Assembly (NCBI GenBank): GCA_945957605.1
Contig: CAMFLR010000001.1
Span: forward strand, 62,001-126,000
Reading direction: 5' to 3'
From: an uncultured Isosphaeraceae bacterium
GTDB taxonomy: Bacteria; Planctomycetota; Planctomycetia; Isosphaerales; Isosphaeraceae
DNA: 64,000 bases
The position numbers were made by a program, and so were the translations under genes. Every line of letters starts with the position of its first letter. The first letter of the stretch is position 1. Of this stretch, positions 34,076 to 46,865 are shown one piece after another. The notes beneath the pieces are model-generated. The model had not been told where the DNA came from. It did no database searches and saw only the letters and a program-made list of their open reading frames with translations.

Positions 34076-37063
34076 ATGTCCGACGTGCGATTCGGGGGCA
34101 TTTTGCCGCAGATTCACCAGCTATTCGCGGCCGGATCCAACGCGGGCCTCTCCGATGGTGTCCTCCTGCGCCGCTATTGCACTCAACGCGACGAATCGGC
34201 ATTCGCCACCCTTGTCGGCCGTCACGGCGCGATGGTGCTGACGGTCTGCCGCAACGTGCTTCGCAGTGAAATTGACGCGGAGGATGCCTTCCAGGCGGTT
34301 TTTCTCATCCTCGTCCGCAAGGCCGGCTCAATTCGCGTCGATGACTCACTCGGCGGTTGGTTGCATGGCGTTGCGTATCGCGTGGCCGTTCGTGCGAGCG
34401 AACAAGCAGCCCGACGAGGAACGCGCGAACGCGATGGACTTGAAACGCGCGACTGGGCGGATTCAACCGCAAGTCCAGCGTCCGACCCGCGTCTCGCTGC
34501 GCTTCACGAAGAAATTGCGCGGTTGCCAGGTTCGCAGCGACAGGCATTGGTGCTCTGCTGGCTCGAAGGCAAGACGCAGGTTGAAGCCGCGCAGGAGATA
34601 GGTTGTGGCGAGGCGACGGTCAGACGCAGAGTGGCCGATGCCCGTGAACGGCTGAAGGAGCGACTCGATAGCCGTCATCAAATTGGCGATGCGGCCCCTG
34701 CTCTACTCGCTTTGCCGACAAGGCTCGCCGAATCGACCCTCGCAGTGGCTGCCGGACCACTCAACGCGCTGGCTGCTTCGATATTGAATGAAATGAAGGT
34801 TGCACACCTGGCACGCGTTGGGTTGATGGGATGTCTGGTGGTTGCTGCAGTGGCGGGCGGAATTATCCTGGCGGCACGACGGAGTACGCCTGACTTGCCG
34901 CCGATGCAGCAACCGGCGGCCGAGCCGATGCCCGTTGCTGATGCCGGTGAAATCAAAACGGCACTCGACCCGGGTGATTTTCACGTCCTCGGCAAAGTGG
35001 TTGGCCCCGACGGCGGACCCGTCGCGGGGGCCGTGATTTATCTCCGTGCGTTCGGCGTGCAAGTTCCCGCTCGCAAGGCGGTGACCGATGCCAGCGGCAC
35101 GTTCCAGTTTCAGACCAAACGTGAGCTTGGGATCAAGATGACCGAAACCGCCCCCAACCACTACGTTGGCGGGCCGTTCCCGGATGAGGAGGAAATCCGC
35201 CACGTCAAGCCACGCATCGTCGCGGTTGCGCCTGGATTTGGTTTCGGCTTGCTCGAACCTGGCGACGGGGTGACGCTGAAGCTCACCGCCGACGAGCCGA
35301 TTTCGGGTCGCGTGACCGATCGTGATGGCAAGCCTGTTTCCGGAGCTGACGTTCGCGTGCGAAATATTTACTGGCCCAAGCACGCGGATGATCCGCTCAA
35401 TGTGCTCAGCCATTTCTATCGGCCTGAACCGCAGGGCGACAAGGCTCCGGAGGGGCCAGCAACGCTCGATCCCTGGCTGGCGACCGTCAAATCCGCGGCG
35501 CATCTTCCCGACCTCACGAGGGCCACGGCGCAATCGCTGTCGGCACTCGCGAATTCGCTCGGCGATATTCCCGCCGCACACGCGCCGATCGTTCATCCGG
35601 TAAAAACCGATGCCGACGGGCGATTCAAATTGATTGGTCTCGGCAAGGAACGCGTCGGCGAGCTGATTATTGATGGCAAACCAGGATTCGCCTCAAATCT
35701 TCTTCTCGCGGCGTCCCGACCGATCGATCAATCGCTGCGAGTTCCCGGCGAGCCCCAGAAAACCAAAGGACTGATCGCGAATCCAAGTGCTGATGTGCTC
35801 ATCTTCGGTAATCGGGCCGACGTGGTGCTCGAACCCGGCTGCGACGTTGAAGGAACGGTCAGCGATCCCGCGTCGCATTTGCCGCTGAGAGGGGTTCGCG
35901 TGATAGGTCCGTGGATCAATCGCCTCGAATACCCTGAATTCGACCGCTTCCACGCCACGACCGACGCGTTTGGCCATTACCGAATTTCGGGTCTGCCGTT
36001 ACGAAAGGATCTCGATTTTACTTTCCGAGCACCCGAAAAATCGGCATATATTGGCCGCGAAGTCGATGTTGATACACGAGATGCGGGCGCGCTCAAACAG
36101 GTCGACGTCGCGCTGCCGAAAGGCGTGTGGATTACAGGTAAAGTCGTTGACGATGCGACAGGAGCACCCATCCCCGACGCGTCGATCGAATATCATGTCT
36201 TCAACAATAATCCCTTTCTTCGCAAGGATCTCGAAGCGAAGGTGTTTCCCGACTTCGATGACCATCTTCGGGCGAACGGCGAGGGTGAATTCCGGATCAT
36301 CGCCTATCCCGGCCGGGGGATCGTCGCGGCCTTCTATTCCGGCTATCTCAACGGCATTGGTGCCGAGAAAATCGCCGGATTGGGGCCGAAAGAGTTCGCC
36401 GAGACACTCTTCTCGACGAAGGGTTTTAGCCCGTCGATTCGAAGTACGATCATCGAAGTGAACGTGCCAGAAGGCGCTCAGGATTACACATGCGAACTTC
36501 GGTTGAAGAAGGGGAAGAGCCGTCAAGTTCGCGTGGTTGGTGTCGAGGGCAAGCCGCGCTTCGGGTTCGAGGCGAGCGGTCTGGCCGGTCAAATTGAAAA
36601 CCCGATGACCAAAGTCGAATCCGACCGATTCACAGTGACGAACCTGTTTCCTGGCGAACGCAGGGCAGTGATTGCCCGAATTGCGAAGGAGAAGTTAACC
36701 GGAACGGTCGAGGTGCCCGCCGACGATACCACGCCCATTACGCTTAAGCTCCAACCATGGGCGACGCTCAAGGGGCGGCTCGTCGACGACGCGGGTAAAC
36801 CGTTGTTCAAGGCGATCGATATCGAGCTAGAAGACGGCAAATTGCCGATCCACACGTTCAACGGCCGCAATTATGATCGCGAGGAGTTTTCGGTTTCGCC
36901 TGATGGGACGTTTGAGTTAATTGGTCTCGTTCCCGGTGCAACGTATCGGCTGTATGCCATTCTGGGTAACGCGCAGGTCCTTGGTTACGTGACGGCTGCG
37001 TTCGAACTCAAACCGGGTGAGATTCGCGAGCTTGGAGACGTCCACGTAATTACCAAGAAGTAG
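34076..37063 (+). CDS. Membrane-tethered ECF sigma factor fused to carboxypeptidase-regulatory-like repeats (995 aa)
   Basis: Residues ~1-195 are an ECF sigma factor: region 2 with AEDAFQAVFLILVRKAGSIR (~68-87) and region 4 with LPGSQRQALVLCWLEGKTQ and an HTH ending RRRVADARERL (~150-193). One membrane helix lies at ~247-267 (VGLMGCLVVAAVAGGIILAA). The outer ~725 residues contain at least five beta-sandwich units of the carboxypeptidase-regulatory/CnaB-like type, starting near residues 301 (VLGKVVGPDGGPVAGA), 408 (ISGRVTDRDGKPVSGA), 590, 686 (ITGKVVDDATGAPIPDA) and 898. ATG 34076 has AGAGGG upstream. The plan implies an external signal that frees or modulates the sigma part without a separate anti-sigma factor; this is inference. 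Similar long ECF proteins (ECF01-Gob type) are known in planctomycetes. Confidence 0.9.
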   Translation: MSDVRFGGILPQIHQLFAAGSNAGLSDGVLLRRYCTQRDESAFATLVGRHGAMVLTVCRNVLRSEIDAEDAFQAVFLILVRKAGSIRVDDSLGGWLHGVAYRVAVRASEQAARRGTRERDGLETRDWADSTASPASDPRLAALHEEIARLPGSQRQALVLCWLEGKTQVEAAQEIGCGEATVRRRVADARERLKERLDSRHQIGDAAPALLALPTRLAESTLAVAAGPLNALAASILNEMKVAHLARVGLMGCLVVAAVAGGIILAARRSTPDLPPMQQPAAEPMPVADAGEIKTALDPGDFHVLGKVVGPDGGPVAGAVIYLRAFGVQVPARKAVTDASGTFQFQTKRELGIKMTETAPNHYVGGPFPDEEEIRHVKPRIVAVAPGFGFGLLEPGDGVTLKLTADEPISGRVTDRDGKPVSGADVRVRNIYWPKHADDPLNVLSHFYRPEPQGDKAPEGPATLDPWLATVKSAAHLPDLTRATAQSLSALANSLGDIPAAHAPIVHPVKTDADGRFKLIGLGKERVGELIIDGKPGFASNLLLAASRPIDQSLRVPGEPQKTKGLIANPSADVLIFGNRADVVLEPGCDVEGTVSDPASHLPLRGVRVIGPWINRLEYPEFDRFHATTDAFGHYRISGLPLRKDLDFTFRAPEKSAYIGREVDVDTRDAGALKQVDVALPKGVWITGKVVDDATGAPIPDASIEYHVFNNNPFLRKDLEAKVFPDFDDHLRANGEGEFRIIAYPGRGIVAAFYSGYLNGIGAEKIAGLGPKEFAETLFSTKGFSPSIRSTIIEVNVPEGAQDYTCELRLKKGKSRQVRVVGVEGKPRFGFEASGLAGQIENPMTKVESDRFTVTNLFPGERRAVIARIAKEKLTGTVEVPADDTTPITLKLQPWATLKGRLVDDAGKPLFKAIDIELEDGKLPIHTFNGRNYDREEFSVSPDGTFELIGLVPGATYRLYAILGNAQVLGYVTAAFELKPGEIRELGDVHVITKK

Positions 37064-37094
37064 GCTTTTTTGTGAGGCGATGAAATCAAAAGAT

Positions 37095-37134
37095 GACGCA
37101 CGGATCGGTGACGTGATTCACCGATCCGTGCGTC
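37095..37134. terminator. Bidirectional terminator between the two sigma-factor genes
   Basis: GACGCACGGATCGGTGA, loop CGTGAT, TCACCGATCCGTGCGTC: 17 perfect pairs centred between the two convergent genes. Confidence 0.75.
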
Positions 37135-37174
37135 GTTGAGTCTTCGCGATGCCGTCAGCGAAGCATCGAATGGA

Positions 37175-39187
37175 TTACTTGCCGAGTTCCTTCTTCAAGT
37201 CGGCAAGTTCCTTCATGAGGGCGTCGATTCGTGCTTCGGACGTCGGCCTGTCGGCAGGTTTTGTCGGGACGGTGGGAGTTGTTGAGGCAGGCACAGTTGG
37301 AGTCAATGGGACTTCGGGATAGACGATCAGTCGATCACCGGCCAGGAGTTGGTAGTTGGTAGTCGACTCACCCTTCTCGACGATCTCTCGAAGATCGACC
37401 CCCAATGTTTGTTCTTTGTGGTTGAACTCAGAAGCGGGGCGGATCAGGCGTATTTTCGCTCCTATCGACGCAAGCTGCAAACCGCCTGCTCGGTTGATCC
37501 CGTCGAGCACGGTGTCGTGGCCGGTGATCGTGAATCGACCTGGCGAGCCGACGGCTCCTTGAACGTAGTACGCCTTGCTGTTGAATTCGGCGATGTCGAC
37601 GAAGACGTAATGTGTTCTGGACGGGGGAACATCGATGTTCTTCTGCGTCTCTTCGTCGAAGGTCCTCAGGCCGAGGGCGCGGTCGGTGAGGTACTCGCGC
37701 AGGTGGGTAACGATCTTTTCCTTCACCTGCATGAGATTGAGGCCGGCGACACTCACCTCATCATAAAAACCCAGGCTGATTTTGCCATCGGGCCTGATGA
37801 GATGCTTGCCCTTAATCGGTCGCCCCGGCAGAGCCTCGAGAACTTCGACGACCAAAACGTCCGACGGTTCCACTTTGTATACGGGCGAGATTCTCATGGC
37901 ACCCTCTCTGGGGAGTGGAGCCTTGACGGGTGCCGAAACGACTGGCTGGTCCTGAACCGGGACAACCTTGAAATCTGACGGTTCAATGACGCTCTTCATC
38001 TCCTTCTTAATTGCATCACGTCGCGTTTGAATTTGGTCGAGGGCCTTGTGGAATCGTTGCGTGCGATCGGTCGAAATGAGCAAACTCCGCTCGGCGCTGC
38101 GGACTGCCACTTTCAGTTCATCAAGCCTTTGAGTCGCTGCAGCAATTTCATCCTCCGAAGCGGCCAGGGACTTCCGATAGTCCGCCTCCTGATCATCGAG
38201 GGTTTTTAGCTCGTCGACACCTGATGCGTGGTTCGACGCAGCCTTCACCGGGTAAGTGATGTTGATGTCGAACTCAGTTTTCGAATCGGGTGAGTTCGCC
38301 TTTGCAGCCGGGTTTTCTTGTTTGGCGGCAACCTTGTCCCTGCCTCCGTCGCCCGCTGCACCGGTCGTATAAGCTCCGACGCAAATCACCAGCAGCGCCA
38401 TCGCGCTGAATTTGAGCTTCGAGAGGAACATGGTCTTCAAAACTCCATTGGCCAGTGTTGCGGCTGGGATGACCGCAGCGCGTCCCGCAGCGAAACCGAT
38501 CGCGGCAGATACCGTTCGTTCGAGGAGCGAGGCGGAAACTGGGTTGGGGCGGAATACCACGGCGAGCGTTCCCGAAGAGACAGCCAGGCCGCGTCGGGTG
38601 AGACGCGAATGAAGGAGCTTCTTTGCCCGGACGAGCCGGCCTTTCACAGATCCCAAGGGCCAGCACAGCCGCCGCGCGGCTTCTTCATGCGTCAAACCAT
38701 CGAGATAGCAGAGCATGACCACGTTGCGGTATGGTTTGGGGAGACTGTCTAGCTCGTCATGAACAGCGATCGCCATTTCTCGACGTTCGTGTTCATCGCT
38801 CGGCCGGTCGTCGTTCACGTCGATGGGGGCAACCGTCCGCCGGTTTCTCCGATCGAGATCGGCACCCGCACGGAGGGCAAGCCGTCGCGTCACGGTGTAA
38901 AGCCAGCGACCGAGGGAATCATCAACGCGGATCGACCCAGCCTTACGGACCAGAACCAGGAACGCCGCCTGGAATACGTCTTCCGCTTCATGCGGATCGG
39001 CGATGATTCGTCGGCAAACCCCCAGCACCATCGGTCCATGGCGATCCACCAAGGCTGTGAACGCGACTTCATCGCGATTCAACGCGAACCGCTGGAGCAA
39101 CTGCCGGTCGGAAAGCCCGATGACGGTCCCCGTCTCGAACAGGTGCTGAATCTGCTTCAGCGCGATGCCTCCGAACTCCTTTGGCAT
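37175..39187 (-). CDS. Membrane-tethered ECF sigma factor fused to a polysaccharide-export/SLBB module (670 aa)
   Basis: From ATG 39187 (TTG at 39208 is an alternative). Residues ~1-198 are an ECF sigma factor (AEDVFQAAFLVLVRKAGSIR at 68-87; region 4 PKPYRNVVMLCYLDGLTHEE with SVKGRLVRAKKLL at ~150-192). One membrane helix is at ~257-276. A coiled coil follows (~325-400). Residues ~437-505 match a Wza-type polysaccharide-export domain (YKVEPSDVLVVEVLEALPG, LIRPDGKISLGFYDEVSVAG), and ~527-590 an SLBB domain (YVQGAVGSPGRFTITGHDTV, INRAGGLQ), closing with LLAGDRLIVYP. The C-terminus is a Pro/Thr linker and a short helix. SLBB domains normally bind glycans in capsule export. A sensor role for envelope polysaccharide controlling the attached sigma factor is my inference. 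Confidence 0.9.
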   Translation of the reverse strand: MPKEFGGIALKQIQHLFETGTVIGLSDRQLLQRFALNRDEVAFTALVDRHGPMVLGVCRRIIADPHEAEDVFQAAFLVLVRKAGSIRVDDSLGRWLYTVTRRLALRAGADLDRRNRRTVAPIDVNDDRPSDEHERREMAIAVHDELDSLPKPYRNVVMLCYLDGLTHEEAARRLCWPLGSVKGRLVRAKKLLHSRLTRRGLAVSSGTLAVVFRPNPVSASLLERTVSAAIGFAAGRAAVIPAATLANGVLKTMFLSKLKFSAMALLVICVGAYTTGAAGDGGRDKVAAKQENPAAKANSPDSKTEFDINITYPVKAASNHASGVDELKTLDDQEADYRKSLAASEDEIAAATQRLDELKVAVRSAERSLLISTDRTQRFHKALDQIQTRRDAIKKEMKSVIEPSDFKVVPVQDQPVVSAPVKAPLPREGAMRISPVYKVEPSDVLVVEVLEALPGRPIKGKHLIRPDGKISLGFYDEVSVAGLNLMQVKEKIVTHLREYLTDRALGLRTFDEETQKNIDVPPSRTHYVFVDIAEFNSKAYYVQGAVGSPGRFTITGHDTVLDGINRAGGLQLASIGAKIRLIRPASEFNHKEQTLGVDLREIVEKGESTTNYQLLAGDRLIVYPEVPLTPTVPASTTPTVPTKPADRPTSEARIDALMKELADLKKELGK

Positions 39188-39746
39188 ACCCTTGTCCCCG
39201 CTGCACAACGCCAGTCCTCGTTTTGCTTACTCTTTTACTAAGGCACGGCATCCGGTTGGAGTTACAACTTTCCGTTTCAAGCGACGAGATTTCGGTTTTC
39301 AGGGAACCGCTGACGTCGTCGCGAAATTACTCAGTGCGCAAGACGCGGCCGGGTTCGAGAACGCCCGTTCGGCATAGACAAACCGCGGATCTCATCGCGA
39401 AACGCCAGTCATTTCGATTTTCTTATCAAGAGATGATAACGATTAAAATTTGCGTGCAGACGTGCAATCGAGTCTGATCGTAAGCTGAAACTAGCCAAAT
39501 GGTTGAGTTTGAGGCTACGACGCCAAAGTCCTGAAATTTTACCGAGCTTTCCCTGCCTCTATAATGATTTATTCGCGCCGGTAGTCGCTTTGAAATCGGC
39601 GTGGTGCAATGCCAGGGCGGGCGGGTTGAATAGGGGGTGAACTTGCGCCATAATGGACCCTGTCAGGGTCGTCTTCCCCGCAAACCAGCCCGCCTCCGTT
39701 TTCCGCCCCCGTGCGGATCGACTGCTCACACTAGGGTGGATTTTTC
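39188..39746. other. Divergent promoter region, AT-rich, no gene seen
   Basis: About 560 bp between the SLBB-sigma gene and ino1, which point away from each other. The part 39390-39570 is visibly richer in A/T than its surroundings. TATAAT at 39560-39565 reads toward ino1 but has a poor -35 partner. I see no coding pattern. Confidence 0.4.
39560..39565 (+). promoter_or_regulatory. Possible -10 element toward the ino1 operon
   Basis: TATAAT in the sequence CCTCTATAATGATTT, ~180 bp before ino1. No recognisable -35 at 16-18 bp. Low confidence. Confidence 0.25.
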
Positions 39747-40955
39747 ATGAGTCGCCGCGTTGGACTTTGGTTGATTGGTGCTTTTGGCGGCGTCGGAACG
39801 ACGATCACGCTCGGCCTGACCGCGATGGCGAAGGGAATCTCGGGCCGCACCGGCTTGGTGACGGATCTACCGCTCTTTGAAGGACTTCCGCTCCCCGAAC
39901 CCGCCGAGTTCATCATCGGCGGCCACGACATTCGCCAGACTACTTTCGTAGAGGCCGCCGAAGAGTTTCGCGCCAACTCGGGCACGTTTAGCGGCGAACT
40001 GATTCAGGCATGCAAGGCCGAATTGCTCGCAGCGAGCGAACGCGTTCGCCCTGGGACCAAGCTCGGTTCAGGTGCTTCGATCGCGCGAATGGGTGACTGG
40101 GGCGACAACAAGCCGGCCCGCACAGCCAAGGAAGCCATCGATCGCATCAGCGCCGACCTCGCGGCGTTTGTGGACACCGAAAAGCTCGATCACCTGATCG
40201 TCCTGTCCGTCGCGTCGACCGAACCGCCGTTCCTGATCGGCGACGTCCACGACAACTGGGACACGCTGAACGCCGCGCTCGCGACCGGCGGGGCCGAACT
40301 GCTCCCATCCAGCTCGCTCTACGCGATCGCCGCTCTTCGTGCGGGGCACTCGTACCTCAACTTCACGCCGAGCCTGGGGGCGTCGATTCCCGCCCTCTAT
40401 CAGTTTGCCGAAAGCACCGGCGCGTTGCACGGCGGCAAGGACGGCAAGACTGGCGAAACGCTGATGAAGACCGTGCTGGCGCCGATGTTCGCCGCGCGGA
40501 ATCTTGAGGTTATGAGCTGGGTCGGCCACAACATTTTCGGCAATCGCGATGGTGTGATTCTCGACGATCCTGTGAACAAGTCGTCAAAGGTTGATACGAA
40601 GGACCGCGTCGTCACCCAGATTCTCGGCTACAAGCCGAAAACGCTGGTGACGATCGAGTACATCCCCGACATGGGCGACTGGAAAACCGCGTGGGATCAC
40701 ATCCACTTCCGCGGTTTCCTCGACACCAAGATGACGCTGCAGTTCACCTGGCAAGGCTGCGATAGCCTGCTAGCGGCACCTCTGGCGATCGATCTCGCTC
40801 GATTGACAGACGTCGAAAAAGTCCGCGGCAAGTCGGGCCTGATGAAGCACCTGGCCGCCTTCTTCAAGGGCCCAGAAGGCGTGGGCGAAAACGACTTCTT
40901 CAAGCAAACGACGATGCTCGAAGAGTACGTCGCCAAGGCCAAAGCGAAGAGCTGA
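39747..40955 (+). CDS. ino1: Inositol-3-phosphate synthase
   Basis: 402 residues. The enzyme converts glucose 6-phosphate to 1D-myo-inositol 3-phosphate with NAD. The N-terminal Rossmann loop GAFGGVGTTITLGL is visible, as are NWDTLNAALATGG, YLNFTPSLGASIPAL, the catalytic-domain stretch GKTGETLMKTVLAPMF and HNIFGNRDGVILDDP, all typical of the family. First gene of a four-gene run; the next start is 57 bp downstream, with likely co-transcription. Its product suggests that a cyclitol is the starting unit of the pathway encoded here. Confidence 0.95.
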   Translation: MSRRVGLWLIGAFGGVGTTITLGLTAMAKGISGRTGLVTDLPLFEGLPLPEPAEFIIGGHDIRQTTFVEAAEEFRANSGTFSGELIQACKAELLAASERVRPGTKLGSGASIARMGDWGDNKPARTAKEAIDRISADLAAFVDTEKLDHLIVLSVASTEPPFLIGDVHDNWDTLNAALATGGAELLPSSSLYAIAALRAGHSYLNFTPSLGASIPALYQFAESTGALHGGKDGKTGETLMKTVLAPMFAARNLEVMSWVGHNIFGNRDGVILDDPVNKSSKVDTKDRVVTQILGYKPKTLVTIEYIPDMGDWKTAWDHIHFRGFLDTKMTLQFTWQGCDSLLAAPLAIDLARLTDVEKVRGKSGLMKHLAAFFKGPEGVGENDFFKQTTMLEEYVAKAKAKS

Positions 40956-41012
40956 CGAAGCCGTCGCGCGAATTCACTCTCCTCGAAATCCGCCCCAGAT
41001 CATGAGGCATGC

Positions 41013-41858
41013 ATGCGTCTCGCCTTCAGCACGAATGCGTACTTGAATTTCCCCTTCGAAGAAGCCGCGGCGCGAATCGCCGCGATCGGCTATGAAGGGC
41101 TCGAGTTGATGGCCGACGTGCCGCACGCCTGGCCTGCCTACATGCTTGAAGGCTCGAAGCAAGGAATTCGCGACGCGATGCAGAAAACAGGCCTCACGTT
41201 CTCAAACGTGAACGCCTTCATGATGCACGCGGTTGACGACCATCGACAGCACTTCTGGTACCCCTCGTTCATCGAGCCCGACCCCAACTATCGTCGGGTG
41301 CGCATCGACCACACCAAGCGGGCCCTCACGCTCTGCAAGGAACTTGGTGCGCCCCACATCACGACCGAGCCTGGCGGACCGATCGACCCTTCGCAAACTC
41401 GCCAGCAGGCGATTGATCTGTTCGTCGAGGCACTCAAGCCACTTGCTGAGCATGCGGAAAGCCTGGGCGTTTTGCTCCTGATCGAGCCCGAGCCGGAGCT
41501 CCTGGCCGAAACGACCGATCAATATGTTGAAATCGCCGAACGCGTGAATTCGTCGGCAATTGGTCTAAATTTCGACGTGGGACATGCGTACTGCATGAGC
41601 GAGGACATCCCCGCGCAGATCAAGAAGTTGACGCCGCACATCAAGCATTACCACTTTGAGGATATTGCACCGACTCGTGTGCACCATCATATGATTCCCG
41701 GTCTCGGGGCGATCAATTTCCCCGAGGTGGTCGATGCGATCAAGGCGTCGGGCTACGACGGGTGGATCACGGTCGAGTTGTACCCGAATATTGATGATCC
41801 CGACGGCGCGGCGAAGCGAGCTTACGAGGTTTTGAAGCCGCTCGTCAAAGGAAAGTAA
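41013..41858 (+). CDS. Sugar-phosphate isomerase/epimerase-like TIM-barrel protein
   Basis: 281 residues of the AP-endonuclease-2/xylose-isomerase-like fold. The start MRLAFSTNAYLNFPFEEAA and IGYEGLELMADVPHAW fit strand 1 and 2. Metal-site residues are likely in LLIEPEPELLAET, INFDVGHAYC (seen as LNFDVGHAYC), HIKHYHFEDI and WITVELYP, which place Glu, Asp, His and Glu in the family positions. The stop is separated from the GTG of the next gene by one base, indicating coupling. It probably isomerises or oxidises the inositol-derived intermediate, but the substrate is not known. Confidence 0.85.
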   Translation: MRLAFSTNAYLNFPFEEAAARIAAIGYEGLELMADVPHAWPAYMLEGSKQGIRDAMQKTGLTFSNVNAFMMHAVDDHRQHFWYPSFIEPDPNYRRVRIDHTKRALTLCKELGAPHITTEPGGPIDPSQTRQQAIDLFVEALKPLAEHAESLGVLLLIEPEPELLAETTDQYVEIAERVNSSAIGLNFDVGHAYCMSEDIPAQIKKLTPHIKHYHFEDIAPTRVHHHMIPGLGAINFPEVVDAIKASGYDGWITVELYPNIDDPDGAAKRAYEVLKPLVKGK

Positions 41859-41859
41859 A

Positions 41860-42741
41860 GTGGCGCTGAAGCCTTACTTTCAGCTCGTGCGGTTGCCGAA
41901 TCTCTTCACGGCAGCCGCCGATCCGCTCGCTGGTTTCTTGATCGCGGGCGGACTGCTGTCGAATCCCGCGAAGTGGCTACCGCTCGTTCTGGCGGGGGTC
42001 TGCCTCTATGCCGCGGGCATGGCCCTCAACGACGTATTCGACTACCAGACCGACCTGCGCGAGCGTCCCAGCCGGCCGCTTCCTTCCGGCCGCGCATCGC
42101 GCTGGATCGCGGCGGTGCTTGGCTGGGATCTGCTCTTTGTCGGACCGGTGCTGGCGGCAGTCGCGGGCCCGCGCAGCCTGATCGTGGCCATCGCACTTGC
42201 GGCTTGCGTGCTGATCTATGACGCGGGACGAGTTCGGCCGTGGCGGCGCCCTGAAGTCATGGGAGGCTGCCGCGGATTGAACCTCTTGCTGGGCATGAGC
42301 GCGTCTGCCGATCTCGGCGGCCCGTCTGGCTGGGCGATGGCGGTCGCCTTCGCGATCTTCGTGATCGGCGTCACGTATATCAGCGGCGACGAGGTCCATC
42401 ACGATCAGTCGCAGGGCGTCAAAGCCGGCATGATCCTTCAAAACGTCGCGATGCTCGCACTCGTCGCGGCGGCTGCGTGGGTTCGGGAATCGAGCATTGC
42501 ACTCGGCGTCGGCGTGGCCGTCTTCGCGACTGTTGCGTTTATTGTGAATCGTGCCGATCTTCGTGCGATTCGCAGGCCCGAGCCGTCGACGATTCAAAAC
42601 GCCGTCAAAACCGGCGTGATCATGCTGATCTGGCTCGACGTGGGATTGGTATCAATCGCAGCAGGCCCGTTGCTCGCCCTTCCCGTCGCCGCGCTCTGGA
42701 TTCCGGCATTCGTGCTGGGCAAGTGGCTTTACTCCACCTGA
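41860..42741 (+). CDS. UbiA-like prenyltransferase (EboC / SCO3242-like)
   Basis: 293 residues starting with GTG 41860; AAGGAAAG upstream overlaps the preceding gene end. About eight membrane helices. The first Asp-rich motif is NDVFDYQTD (residues 57-65), followed by the family's RPSRPLPSG. The second is in YISGDEVHHDQSQG. Both are needed to bind Mg-prenyl diphosphate, so an active transferase is likely. Placement directly beside inositol phosphate synthase and TIM-barrel isomerases matches, as I recall, the Streptomyces SCO3241-3243 arrangement and relatives of the ebo cluster. The acceptor is probably a cyclitol-derived molecule (inference). Confidence 0.87.
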   Translation: MALKPYFQLVRLPNLFTAAADPLAGFLIAGGLLSNPAKWLPLVLAGVCLYAAGMALNDVFDYQTDLRERPSRPLPSGRASRWIAAVLGWDLLFVGPVLAAVAGPRSLIVAIALAACVLIYDAGRVRPWRRPEVMGGCRGLNLLLGMSASADLGGPSGWAMAVAFAIFVIGVTYISGDEVHHDQSQGVKAGMILQNVAMLALVAAAAWVRESSIALGVGVAVFATVAFIVNRADLRAIRRPEPSTIQNAVKTGVIMLIWLDVGLVSIAAGPLLALPVAALWIPAFVLGKWLYST

Positions 42742-42768
42742 GGCCGCCTCACTCTTAACGGTGCATTG

Positions 42769-43611
42769 ATGCGTCTCGGCTATAACACCAACGGCTTGCC
42801 GCACCACCGTTTGCTCGATGCCATCGACTTTCTCGCCGAGGAAGGATTCGAGTCGGTCGCGCTCACGCTCGACGCGGGCGCACTTGACCCCTATCAGGAC
42901 GCCGCCGACCTCGCGCGCCAGGTGGCCATGGTCCGCGAGCGGCTTGATGCTCACGGGATGATTCGGGTGGTCGAGACCGGGGCGCGGTTCCTGCTCAATC
43001 CGCGCAAGAAGCACGATCCCACCTTGATGGATCCCGACCCCGCGCGACGAGCATTGCGCATCGATTTCCTGAACCGGTCGATCGACCTCTGCGACGCCCT
43101 CGGCGCCGAGGCCGTGTCATTCTGGTCTGGTGCACTCCCTGACTCGGCCAGCGAGGATCAGGCGTTCGACCGGATTGTGGATGCCCTTCAACCGGTGATC
43201 TCTCACGCGGAGTCAAAGCGGGTGCGGCTCGCGTTCGAGCCTGAGCCAGGGATGTTCATCGACACCTTTGCGCGGTTCGCCCGCCTCGACGAAAGAATTC
43301 GGCATCCGCTCTTCGATCTCACCGTGGACATCGGCCACGTTCATTGTCTTGAACCCGGCGACACGGCGAGCCACCTTGGTCCCTGGGCGGGACGTATTGC
43401 TAATATCCACATTGAGGACATGAGACGAGGCGTGCATGATCACTTGCTGTTTGGCGAGGGGACGATCGACTTTCCCTCGGTGATCTCTGCGCTTCGCGAC
43501 GCTCAATTCAAAGGTGGGCTCAACGTTGAACTGAGCCGACACGGCCACATGGCGGTCGAAGCTGTCCGCCGGTCAGCAGCATTTCTTAAACCTTTGCTGG
43601 CACATCGCTAA
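42769..43611 (+). CDS. Second sugar-phosphate isomerase/epimerase-like TIM-barrel protein
   Basis: 280 residues from ATG 42769, just after a TTG that could also start. It has the same fold as the product of 41013-41858 (RLGYNTNGLPHHRLLDAI; VALTLDAGALDPY; RLAFEPEPGMFIDT; LTVDIGHVHCLEPGD; IANIHIEDMRRGVHDH; GLNVELSRHGH), with the metal-ligand positions kept. The two copies differ widely outside these motifs, so they likely act on successive intermediates. It lies 27 bp after the prenyltransferase gene. The opening does not match the start I know for EboE, so I do not use that name. Confidence 0.84.
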   Translation: MRLGYNTNGLPHHRLLDAIDFLAEEGFESVALTLDAGALDPYQDAADLARQVAMVRERLDAHGMIRVVETGARFLLNPRKKHDPTLMDPDPARRALRIDFLNRSIDLCDALGAEAVSFWSGALPDSASEDQAFDRIVDALQPVISHAESKRVRLAFEPEPGMFIDTFARFARLDERIRHPLFDLTVDIGHVHCLEPGDTASHLGPWAGRIANIHIEDMRRGVHDHLLFGEGTIDFPSVISALRDAQFKGGLNVELSRHGHMAVEAVRRSAAFLKPLLAHR

Positions 43612-45885: not shown

Positions 45886-46707
45886 TTAGCCGCTGACGGT
45901 TGGATTCCAGGTGAAGCGGCCGGATTGCCGAAAGAATTCGAGCGGGTTGTCGAAGACAACTTTGCGAATGAGCGCGTCGGAATGGCCGCGCGACTTCATC
46001 TCGAAGATGAACTCGGGAACAGCGAGCGGATCGCTATGTCCCCAATCACCGGCGGAGTTCACCATGATCCGATCGGTGCCATACTGCTCAATCAGATCAG
46101 CCGCGCGTGCTGGCGTGCATTTGGTGATGGGATAGAGGGTCATTCCCACCCAGTGGCCTGCGTCGAGCGCGGGCCGAATCGTGTGTTCTTCGACGTGATC
46201 GATACAAACCCGTTCGGGTTTGATGCGGCCGTCGCCGCGAATCATGTCGAGAATCATTCGCGTTCCCTGGTATTTGTCTGCGAGGTGCGGTGTGTGGACC
46301 AGGATTAGCTCGTTCGTGCGTGCGGCAAGGTCGAGATGGTCGATGAACACGATCGACTCATTGCGCGTGTTCTTGTTCAGCCCGATCTCACCGATTCCGA
46401 TGACCCCCGGCTGGTCGAGGAACTCAGGGATCATCTTGATCACTTCGCGCGACAGGCTGACATCTTCAGCTTCCTTGGCATTGATACACAACCACGTGCC
46501 GTGCCCGATGCCGTACGCCCGCGCCCGCTTGGCCTCGTATTCGGTGAGCTGGCGGAAGTAATCGCGAAACCCTTCAGGCCCAGAGCGATCGAACCCCGCC
46601 CAGAACGCCGGCTCGCTGACGAACACGCAGCCCGCGAGTGCCATGCGTTTGTAGTCGTCGGTCGTCCGCGAGACCATGTGAATGTGGGGGTCGATGTAGT
46701 ACGACAT
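45886..46707 (-). CDS. TatD-family metal-dependent hydrolase (EboB-like)
   Basis: 273 residues from ATG 46707 (GGAG 9 bp upstream). The N-terminus MSYYIDPHIHMVSRTTDDY has the HxH metal pair and matches the start I recall for EboB proteins. VGIGEIGLNKN, LILVHTPHLADK and VCIDHVEEHT give further ligands (Glu, His, His), and NSAGDWGHSDPLAVPEF supplies the Asp near the end. The ebo cluster makes or moves a still unknown metabolite needed, for example, for scytonemin-precursor export. Here the gene lies on the opposite strand, 2.3 kb from the inositol-prenyltransferase operon, and may act in the same pathway (inference). Confidence 0.85.
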   Translation of the reverse strand: MSYYIDPHIHMVSRTTDDYKRMALAGCVFVSEPAFWAGFDRSGPEGFRDYFRQLTEYEAKRARAYGIGHGTWLCINAKEAEDVSLSREVIKMIPEFLDQPGVIGIGEIGLNKNTRNESIVFIDHLDLAARTNELILVHTPHLADKYQGTRMILDMIRGDGRIKPERVCIDHVEEHTIRPALDAGHWVGMTLYPITKCTPARAADLIEQYGTDRIMVNSAGDWGHSDPLAVPEFIFEMKSRGHSDALIRKVVFDNPLEFFRQSGRFTWNPTVSG

Positions 46708-46865
46708 CGAAAGAGGCTCCTTCTTCAGGGGTGCGATTATCACCCCTGGCATTTGCCGAATCGACCGCATCGTGAACGAGGTCTATGCGGAACGTCAACG
46801 AAACGGGATAGAAGCGAGACGCTGCGGCGTGTCTGGTGTGATCAATCATGCGCGGTTGGTTGCGG

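Follow-up and report, generated by a model that had tools for sequence, protein, structure and literature searches.

Several phyla and the plastids of some algae carry the ebo genes (PMC5133447, PMC6282210). An isoprenoid-cyclitol was proposed as the product, with EboD acting on sedoheptulose 7-phosphate (PMC5133447), and a prenylated cyclitol was also suggested in PMC6092422. In Nostoc punctiforme, in-frame deletions of eboA, B, C, E and F, but none of eboD, have been published, and loss of any of these five genes or of the whole cluster blocks export of the scytonemin monomer (PMC6282210). The ebo genes of planctomycetes were described as unclustered, with eboD absent in two of three planctomycetes, whose assemblies were drafts (PMC5133447). 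Here we analyzed a window of 64,000 nucleotides from an uncultured bacterium of the planctomycete family Isosphaeraceae (62.0-126.0 kb of contig C1; genome G000, 8.8 Mb in 33 contigs). The window carries a four-gene run encoding an inositol phosphate synthase (Ino1), a triose-phosphate isomerase (TIM) type barrel protein (TIM1), a UbiA-type prenyltransferase (UbiA) and a second barrel protein (TIM2), and in addition a gene for an EboB-like hydrolase. Ino1 and TIM2 very probably replace EboD functionally in an ebo-type pathway.

Compared with the ebo cluster EboA-EboF, the genome has an EboC-like prenyltransferase, an EboB-like hydrolase, a xylose-isomerase-like barrel and an EboF, which is unlinked here, and the role of the sugar-phosphate cyclase is filled. 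It differs in having Ino1 and TIM2 for EboD and a prenyltransferase below the EboC cut-off; EboA and EboE were not found, and the genes do not form one operon. The Streptomyces SCO3242-type cluster (Ino1-UbiA-barrel-EboA-EboB-EboE-EboF, e.g. L106) shares with the genome Ino1, the prenyltransferase, a TIM2-like barrel (47.6% identity over 275 amino acids (aa)), EboB and EboF. Relative to this cluster the window carries an extra barrel, TIM1, is without EboA and EboE, and encodes a prenyltransferase that falls below the SCO3242 cut-off. In Streptomyces coelicolor, the ino1, prenyltransferase and barrel genes are SCO3241-3243. Ino1, a prenyltransferase and a TIM2-like barrel, the combination that marks the SCO3242 type, stand together in the window. 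A haloarchaeal cluster (e.g. L108) also contains Ino1, a UbiA-type enzyme (34% identical), two barrels and EboB, and the annotation of the stretch shows no EboA, EboD or EboE. It differs in that both of its barrels are nearer to TIM1 than to TIM2 and its EboF adjoins Ino1. A sequence-only reading of the window had linked the locus to ebo and Streptomyces SCO3242-type clusters, and both sequence comparison and annotated synteny back this link.

The distribution of the ring-forming enzymes was analyzed in 45 Isosphaeraceae genomes. UbiA was found in 44 of them, Ino1 in 31 and EboD in 14. Searches with the Aureibacter EboD gave two score classes, one of 295-330 bits (14 genomes), which we assigned to EboD, and one of 90-149 bits, which we assigned to AroB and its kin. 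Ino1 and EboD occurred together in a single genome (9.6 expected; Fisher p 2.6e-9), and neither was found in one genome (G164), which also gave no UbiA match. TIM2 accompanied Ino1 (p 9e-11; like the former value not corrected for kinship): it was present in 30 genomes, all of them Ino1 carriers (30/31, G155 included, G168 being the sole Ino1 genome without it), and in 0 of the 13 genomes with EboD only. The genome with both cyclases (G155; C209:595-1710) may represent a transitional state or contain a contaminating contig. One in-frame TGA each was noticed in Ino1 of G181 (C59) and G183 (C205) and in TIM2 of G163 (C426) and G172 (C855); candidate causes are a sequencing error, a frameshift and recoding.

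On single contigs of five genomes (G158, G159, G185, G186 and G188), the linear distance between UbiA and EboD was 1.0 to 5.6 Mb. The surroundings of ten EboD genes were read (eight from Isosphaeraceae, two from family f2; stretches of 8-15 kb), and no further ebo gene was detected in them. Since EboD lies at least 1.0 Mb from UbiA on shared contigs, linkage does not explain the exclusion of Ino1 and EboD, and the pattern is one of complementarity at the level of the genome. Within the 31 Ino1 genomes, UbiA was located at most 2.5 kb from Ino1 in 26, from TIM2 in 24 and from both in 22, a linkage that exceeds chance. The other nine comprise at least one true separation (G177, 76 kb on one contig), the remaining ones having the genes on different contigs or being without TIM2. 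The sequence-only reading depended on conserved linkage in related genomes, and such linkage was thus observed. An EboB-like gene was found within the stretch around UbiA at 13 of 21 family loci, the window included; contig ends truncate part of these stretches.

The same pattern was obtained for 149 planctomycete genomes, including that of the window, with E-value thresholds of 1e-30 (Ino1), 1e-55 (EboD) and 1e-40 (TIM2). The EboD threshold was chosen after the score gap in the family had been seen, and its matches in the phylum reach at least 266 bits. Ino1 was found in 80 genomes, EboD in 33 and TIM2 in 70. Ino1 and EboD coincided only once (17.7 expected; Fisher p 3e-12) and TIM2 and EboD never (15.5 expected), while TIM2 and Ino1 were found together in 66 genomes (37.6 expected), i.e. 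in 66 of the 80 with Ino1. Counted per taxonomic family, Ino1 was present in 45, EboD in 17 and both in 2 of 77 families (p 1.2e-5), the total being the highest family code encountered. A single family can be split, as in f2, where two genomes (G048, G069) have Ino1 and TIM2 and four (G024, G087, G105, G137) have EboD. Ino1 of G098 and of G072 each contain one in-frame TAG, with the candidate causes named above for TGA.

In phylogenetic trees, UbiA of Ino1-type and EboD-type genomes was interleaved, with 6 changes of type among 39 rows, 9 among 62 rows and 5 when 33 family genomes were placed in a concatenated tree. The starred branches alone force fewer changes for the two labels (2-3, 4 and 1-2, respectively), and many branches are weak or long. 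The idea of two UbiA subfamilies, one for each ring-former, was rejected because both types interleave, and by the same token one prenyltransferase seems compatible with either ring-former.

The exchange extends to other phyla. A Streptomyces EboB query identified 51 plasmid records, and the surroundings of 24 were read (ten via an earlier UbiA search, fourteen picked for variety). Neighborhoods were analyzed by searches with reference proteins; clustering of open reading frames (ORFs) gave little because antisense ORFs dominate in this GC-rich DNA. Thirteen of the 24 clusters contained Ino1 (Streptomyces, Embleya, Nonomuraea, haloarchaea, Gemmatirosa), nine contained EboD (Azospirillum, Mycetohabitans, Roseivivax, Salipiger, Ketogulonicigenium, two Deinococcus, Aureibacter, Gloeothece), two (Haladaptatus L110, Streptomyces L245) lacked both enzymes within reach, and in no cluster did Ino1 and EboD occur together. 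In L245 (plasmid of NBC_01340), the reference searches show only EboB-EboE-EboF. From a genome collection, the best 80 of 163 stretches encoding relatives were examined. Among these best 80, 25 were haloarchaeal, with Ino1 in 21 (two by short matches) and EboD in none; the usual order is EboB-TIM-UbiA-TIM next to a divergent Ino1-EboF pair. Haloferax carries the cluster at L151, L152 and L154. On a contig of Rokubacteria (L210), the genes are arranged as in Streptomyces, Ino1-UbiA-TIM2-EboA-EboB-EboE-EboF. Over all 131 loci, a redundant set, Ino1 was found in 54, EboD in 6 and both in 0, and the remainder had neither within the stretch. The sequence-only reading had considered a lipid of planctomycetes, which is too narrow because the module is also present in haloarchaea, actinobacteria and others.

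A metagenome-assembled genome from the tubeworm Escarpia (L217:9171-15700) has the order TIM-UbiA-EboA-EboB-EboE-EboF with no Ino1 or EboD in the stretch; its cyclase may be of a third kind or be encoded elsewhere, or it may have none. A gene of the ScyD/ScyE family is located immediately 5' of Ino1 in two plasmid clusters of Streptomyces, with a multicopper oxidase gene nearby (L234:3817-5016, L246:4096-5298). In cyanobacteria, ebo genes show an association with the scytonemin region (PMC6282210, PMC5133447), and the ScyD/ScyE gene beside Streptomyces Ino1 fits a role equivalent to that of cyanobacterial ebo.

Genes of the ebo-like locus in the window (positions refer to the 64,000-nucleotide stretch)
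Feature	Position	Strand	Support
ino1, archaeal-type myo-inositol-1-phosphate synthase, 402 aa	39747..40955	+	Pfam PF07994 149.7 bits, PF01658 116.9 bits
TIM1, xylose-isomerase-like barrel, 281 aa, kin of IolO/IolI-type epimerases	41013..41858	+	PF01261 155.7 bits
EboC/SCO3242-like UbiA-superfamily membrane prenyltransferase, 293 aa	41860..42741	+	PF01040, NCBIfam EboC and SCO3242 models
TIM2, xylose-isomerase-like barrel, 281 aa, likely start ATG 42769	42766..43611	+	PF01261 139.9 bits
EboB-like TatD-related metal-dependent hydrolase, 294 aa (shorter from Met 46707), separate transcription unit	45886..46770	-	PF01026 29 bits, cut-off 27

The four ORFs of the run were all located where the sequence-only reading had placed them. 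Its gaps of 57, 1 and 27 bp also hold, the last one requiring the start of TIM2 at its second codon. The hydrolase gene is present and EboB-like as proposed, with its 5' end further out, since the proposed end is an internal Met. It is located 2.3 kb beyond the four-gene run on the opposite strand. All five ORFs contain Pfam domains above cut-off (NAD_binding_5 and Inos-1-P_synth, AP_endonuc_2 twice, UbiA, TatD_DNase).

The prenyltransferase is a member of the UbiA superfamily (PF01040, 67.6 bits, cut-off 34.2) and is assigned by its sequence to an intermediate branch that has no curated model of its own. EboC and SCO3242 were its best and second-best NCBIfam models, both under cut-off, and the planctomycete and haloarchaeal relatives scanned likewise fell below both cut-offs (3/3). 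In an alignment of 131 UbiA-type sequences (redundant, some contigs being included twice and some distant rows possibly not being ebo-type), the first Asp-rich motif (N57, D58, D61, D65) was conserved in all or all but one. The second motif, which we take to be DxxxD in this superfamily, was not conserved, and a T-x5-E was found there instead (T172 in 128/131, E178 in 129/131). Of the two Asp-rich motifs claimed earlier, only the first is thus kept.

Among solved prenyltransferases, digeranylgeranylglyceryl phosphate (DGGGP) synthase comes nearest in a profile comparison (92.8 bits), followed by chlorophyll synthase (42.8 bits). DGGGP synthase (6m31, 7bpu) also stands first in both fold lists. 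The structure model (predicted local distance difference test (pLDDT) 95.1) matched 6m31 best (Z 24.8, 4.3 Å, 263 residues) and Aeropyrum UbiA 4od5 second (Z 23.6, 2.5 Å, 247 residues); no chlorophyll synthase chain was among the fold matches listed, which is not evidence of its absence. The likeness to DGGGP synthase has limits: identity is ~21%, the second Asp-rich motif is lost, and the two NCBIfam DGGGP synthase models score far below cut-off (61.3 vs. 296 and 45 vs. 353 bits). Four further UbiA proteins are encoded in the genome, namely a heme o synthase, an MqnP-like enzyme and two that resemble decaprenyl-phosphate phosphoribosyltransferase (contigs C9 and C5), an enzyme of the mycobacterial arabinan pathway. 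No ebo genes were detected in the stretches around the latter two (L003, L004).

The best solved relative of Ino1 is Ino1 of Archaeoglobus fulgidus (1u1i, 298 bits). D225, N255, K274, K278, K306, D332 and K367 (1u1i numbering, hand-counted on the alignment), presumably the catalytic residues, are all kept. Judged from these residues and its family domains, Ino1 is a predicted myo-inositol-1-phosphate synthase. TIM1, whose solved relatives include MJ1311, TM_0416 and IolI, adjoins UbiA in Ino1-type as well as EboD-type loci. In TIM2, E158, D188, H215 and E255, which we take from the fold to be a metal site, are invariant in 16/16 homologues. Its structure model (pLDDT 95.6) is closest to ketose 3-epimerases, the top match being UlaE in Foldseek and the epimerase-like 3wqo in VIA-align (Z 30.9, 2.1 Å, 258 residues).

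With EboB of Aureibacter, the TatD-family product of the gene next to eboC, the hydrolase shares 43% identity over 264 aa, and in comparisons with the EboB proteins from four ebo-type clusters identity is 42-43%; its best solved relative is AF_1765 (3guw), of unknown function. Following the earlier suggestion to look for EboA and EboD-F elsewhere in the genome, we found EboF at ~593.9-595.3 kb of contig C1, ~490 kb from UbiA, and did not find the other three. Its identity with the EboF of Azospirillum is 50% over 464 aa. EboF matches of at least 178 bits were obtained in 41/45 Isosphaeraceae genomes. A possible second swap, of TIM1 for EboE, was also considered. G159 has EboE and no TIM1 detected beside UbiA, but L217 carries both EboE and a TIM1-like barrel; TIM1 was searched at the loci only. 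The NCBIfam EboE model scores TIM1 with 22 bits.

From the genes, the swap pattern and the folds we infer the following chemistry. Ino1 enzymes convert glucose 6-phosphate to 1L-myo-inositol 1-phosphate, and the Ino1 of the window would do the same, given its conserved active-site residues. TIM2 may act with Ino1 and alter the ring in its stereochemistry or its oxidation level; together the two would deliver what EboD delivers alone, as co-occurrence and fold suggest. The membrane-bound UbiA-type enzyme would then join a prenyl diphosphate to the cyclitol, which perhaps is still phosphorylated and perhaps receives the chain in ether linkage, by analogy with archaeal DGGGP synthase acting on glycerol phosphate. 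TIM1, EboB and the unlinked EboF might rearrange, hydrolyse or dephosphorylate intermediates. The product would be a prenyl-cyclitol lipid, possibly a membrane carrier, which would fit the role of ebo in scytonemin export. We regard a prenyl-cyclitol as the probable product; the more specific idea that an inositol phosphate is prenylated through an ether bond is a tentative proposal. The best overall explanation, and a reasonably probable one, is an ebo-type pathway with a swapped ring-former and a prenyl-cyclitol lipid as product.

Several observations weigh against this reading. The prenyltransferase reaches 213.8 bits with the EboC model (cut-off 250) and 163.9 bits with the SCO3242 model (cut-off 260), and in fold it is about as near to Aeropyrum UbiA as to DGGGP synthase: the former is close behind by Z (23.6 vs. 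24.8) and ahead by rmsd (root-mean-square deviation) and template modeling score (0.68 vs. 0.64). EboD was not found in the genome, the sole match being AroB-like (136 bits). EboE gave 0 matches there and exceeded the cut-off in 1/45 family genomes (G159). EboA was found in 0/45 family and 0/14 control genomes with a model that does detect Streptomyces EboA (172 bits). The exclusion has its exceptions in G155, which belongs to the genus of the window, and in G106, the sole overlap in the phylum-wide threshold count, whose Ino1 is 33% identical to that of the window. Neither cyclase was found in 37/149 planctomycete genomes and in 10/51 UbiA carriers (UbiA threshold E 1e-15), TIM2 was absent from 14 Ino1 genomes and Ino1 from 4 TIM2 genomes. 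Kinship-corrected contrasts on supported branches number only 1 and 3, too few for significance; in them EboD never moves the same way as Ino1. Because the EboC score lies under its cut-off and EboA, EboD and EboE were not found, we class the cluster as an ebo-like variant, not as a canonical ebo operon.

Ino1 might only supply general inositol for lipid head groups or solutes and share the operon by convenience, with the prenyltransferase acting on an aromatic compound such as a quinoline. Ino1 is a common enzyme and in some genomes is not located beside UbiA. Furthermore, flavobacterial EboC homologues farnesylate quinolines in vitro, e.g. 8-hydroxyquinoline-2-carboxylic acid, and 6/14 aromatic acceptors gave product (PMC9235831), which also counts against a cyclitol acceptor. 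We nevertheless consider this explanation unlikely, since it fails to predict the exclusion of Ino1 and EboD or the pairing of TIM2 with Ino1 in 45 and 149 genomes, and equally the presence of Ino1 in ebo clusters of other phyla. It is rather improbable that the gene set is a transport or trafficking device in which ring chemistry is incidental. All ebo deletions made in Nostoc stop scytonemin monomer export (PMC6282210), and NCBI names EboE a "metabolite traffic protein"; however, the set looks enzymatic, since it includes Ino1, both barrels retain their metal-site residues and the prenyltransferase retains its Mg motif. This explanation also overlaps with the prenyl-cyclitol pathway, because the lipid product could itself be the carrier.

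The resemblance of both barrels to sugar and inosose isomerases could point to an operon for the catabolism of inositol or a sugar, to which the prenyltransferase would be unrelated. We judge this very improbable: Ino1 is anabolic, the barrels score only 21-79 bits with named catabolic models (cut-offs of at least 105), and UbiA and TIM1 remain together where Ino1 and TIM2 are absent. An enzyme of menaquinone, ubiquinone, heme or chlorophyll synthesis is hardly credible. The prenyltransferase does belong to the UbiA superfamily and has chlorophyll synthase as its second-best solved relative by profile, but the NCBIfam models that fit it best are EboC and SCO3242, with chlorophyll and 4-hydroxybenzoate models at 21-32 bits, and heme o synthase and an MqnP-like enzyme are encoded by other genes of the genome. 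The grouping with menaquinone or chlorophyll enzymes that would have spoken against the earlier assignment was thus not observed.

Replacement of EboD, the presumed ring-former, by an enzyme of known reaction narrows the ebo product to what an inositol-phosphate synthase and an isomerase can supply, and points to a lipid with a prenyl chain on an inositol-like ring. The prenylated cyclitol inferred in the sequence-only reading agrees with the product favored here and is not new, as it was already published for ebo (PMC5133447, PMC6092422); the swap adds independent evidence to this idea. It also offers a reason why eboD seemed to be missing in planctomycetes and makes the question of the ebo product directly testable. 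As to the inositol branch, no paper joining ebo with Ino1 or inositol was among those listed in the open-access literature searched. The available parts of PMC5133447, PMC6092422, PMC6282210 and PMC9235831 do not contain the word "inositol", nor those of PMC6282210 "Streptomyces" or those of PMC9235831 "cyclitol". A further-reaching and doubtful extension is that EboD makes the same inositol-type ring as Ino1 and TIM2, not a seven-carbon cyclitol from sedoheptulose 7-phosphate, and that the whole ebo superfamily makes one shared prenyl-inositol-type lipid. If true, such a lipid, with a range spanning plastids, cyanobacteria, planctomycetes and haloarchaea, would be an overlooked isoprenoid lipid class common to bacteria and archaea.

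A prepilin-type protein with a C-terminal H-X9-DG is encoded between the four-gene run and the hydrolase gene and was not counted as a member of the system. A scan counted 2 promoter-like sites upstream of Ino1 (mean of shuffled sequences 1.4) and 7 terminator-like sites (5.3), to which we give no weight. Just 5' of ino1 (34076-39208), there are two large genes (995 aa on the + strand, 677 aa on the - strand). Judged by eye from the translations, their products have starts resembling extracytoplasmic function (ECF) sigma factors followed by long extra domains.

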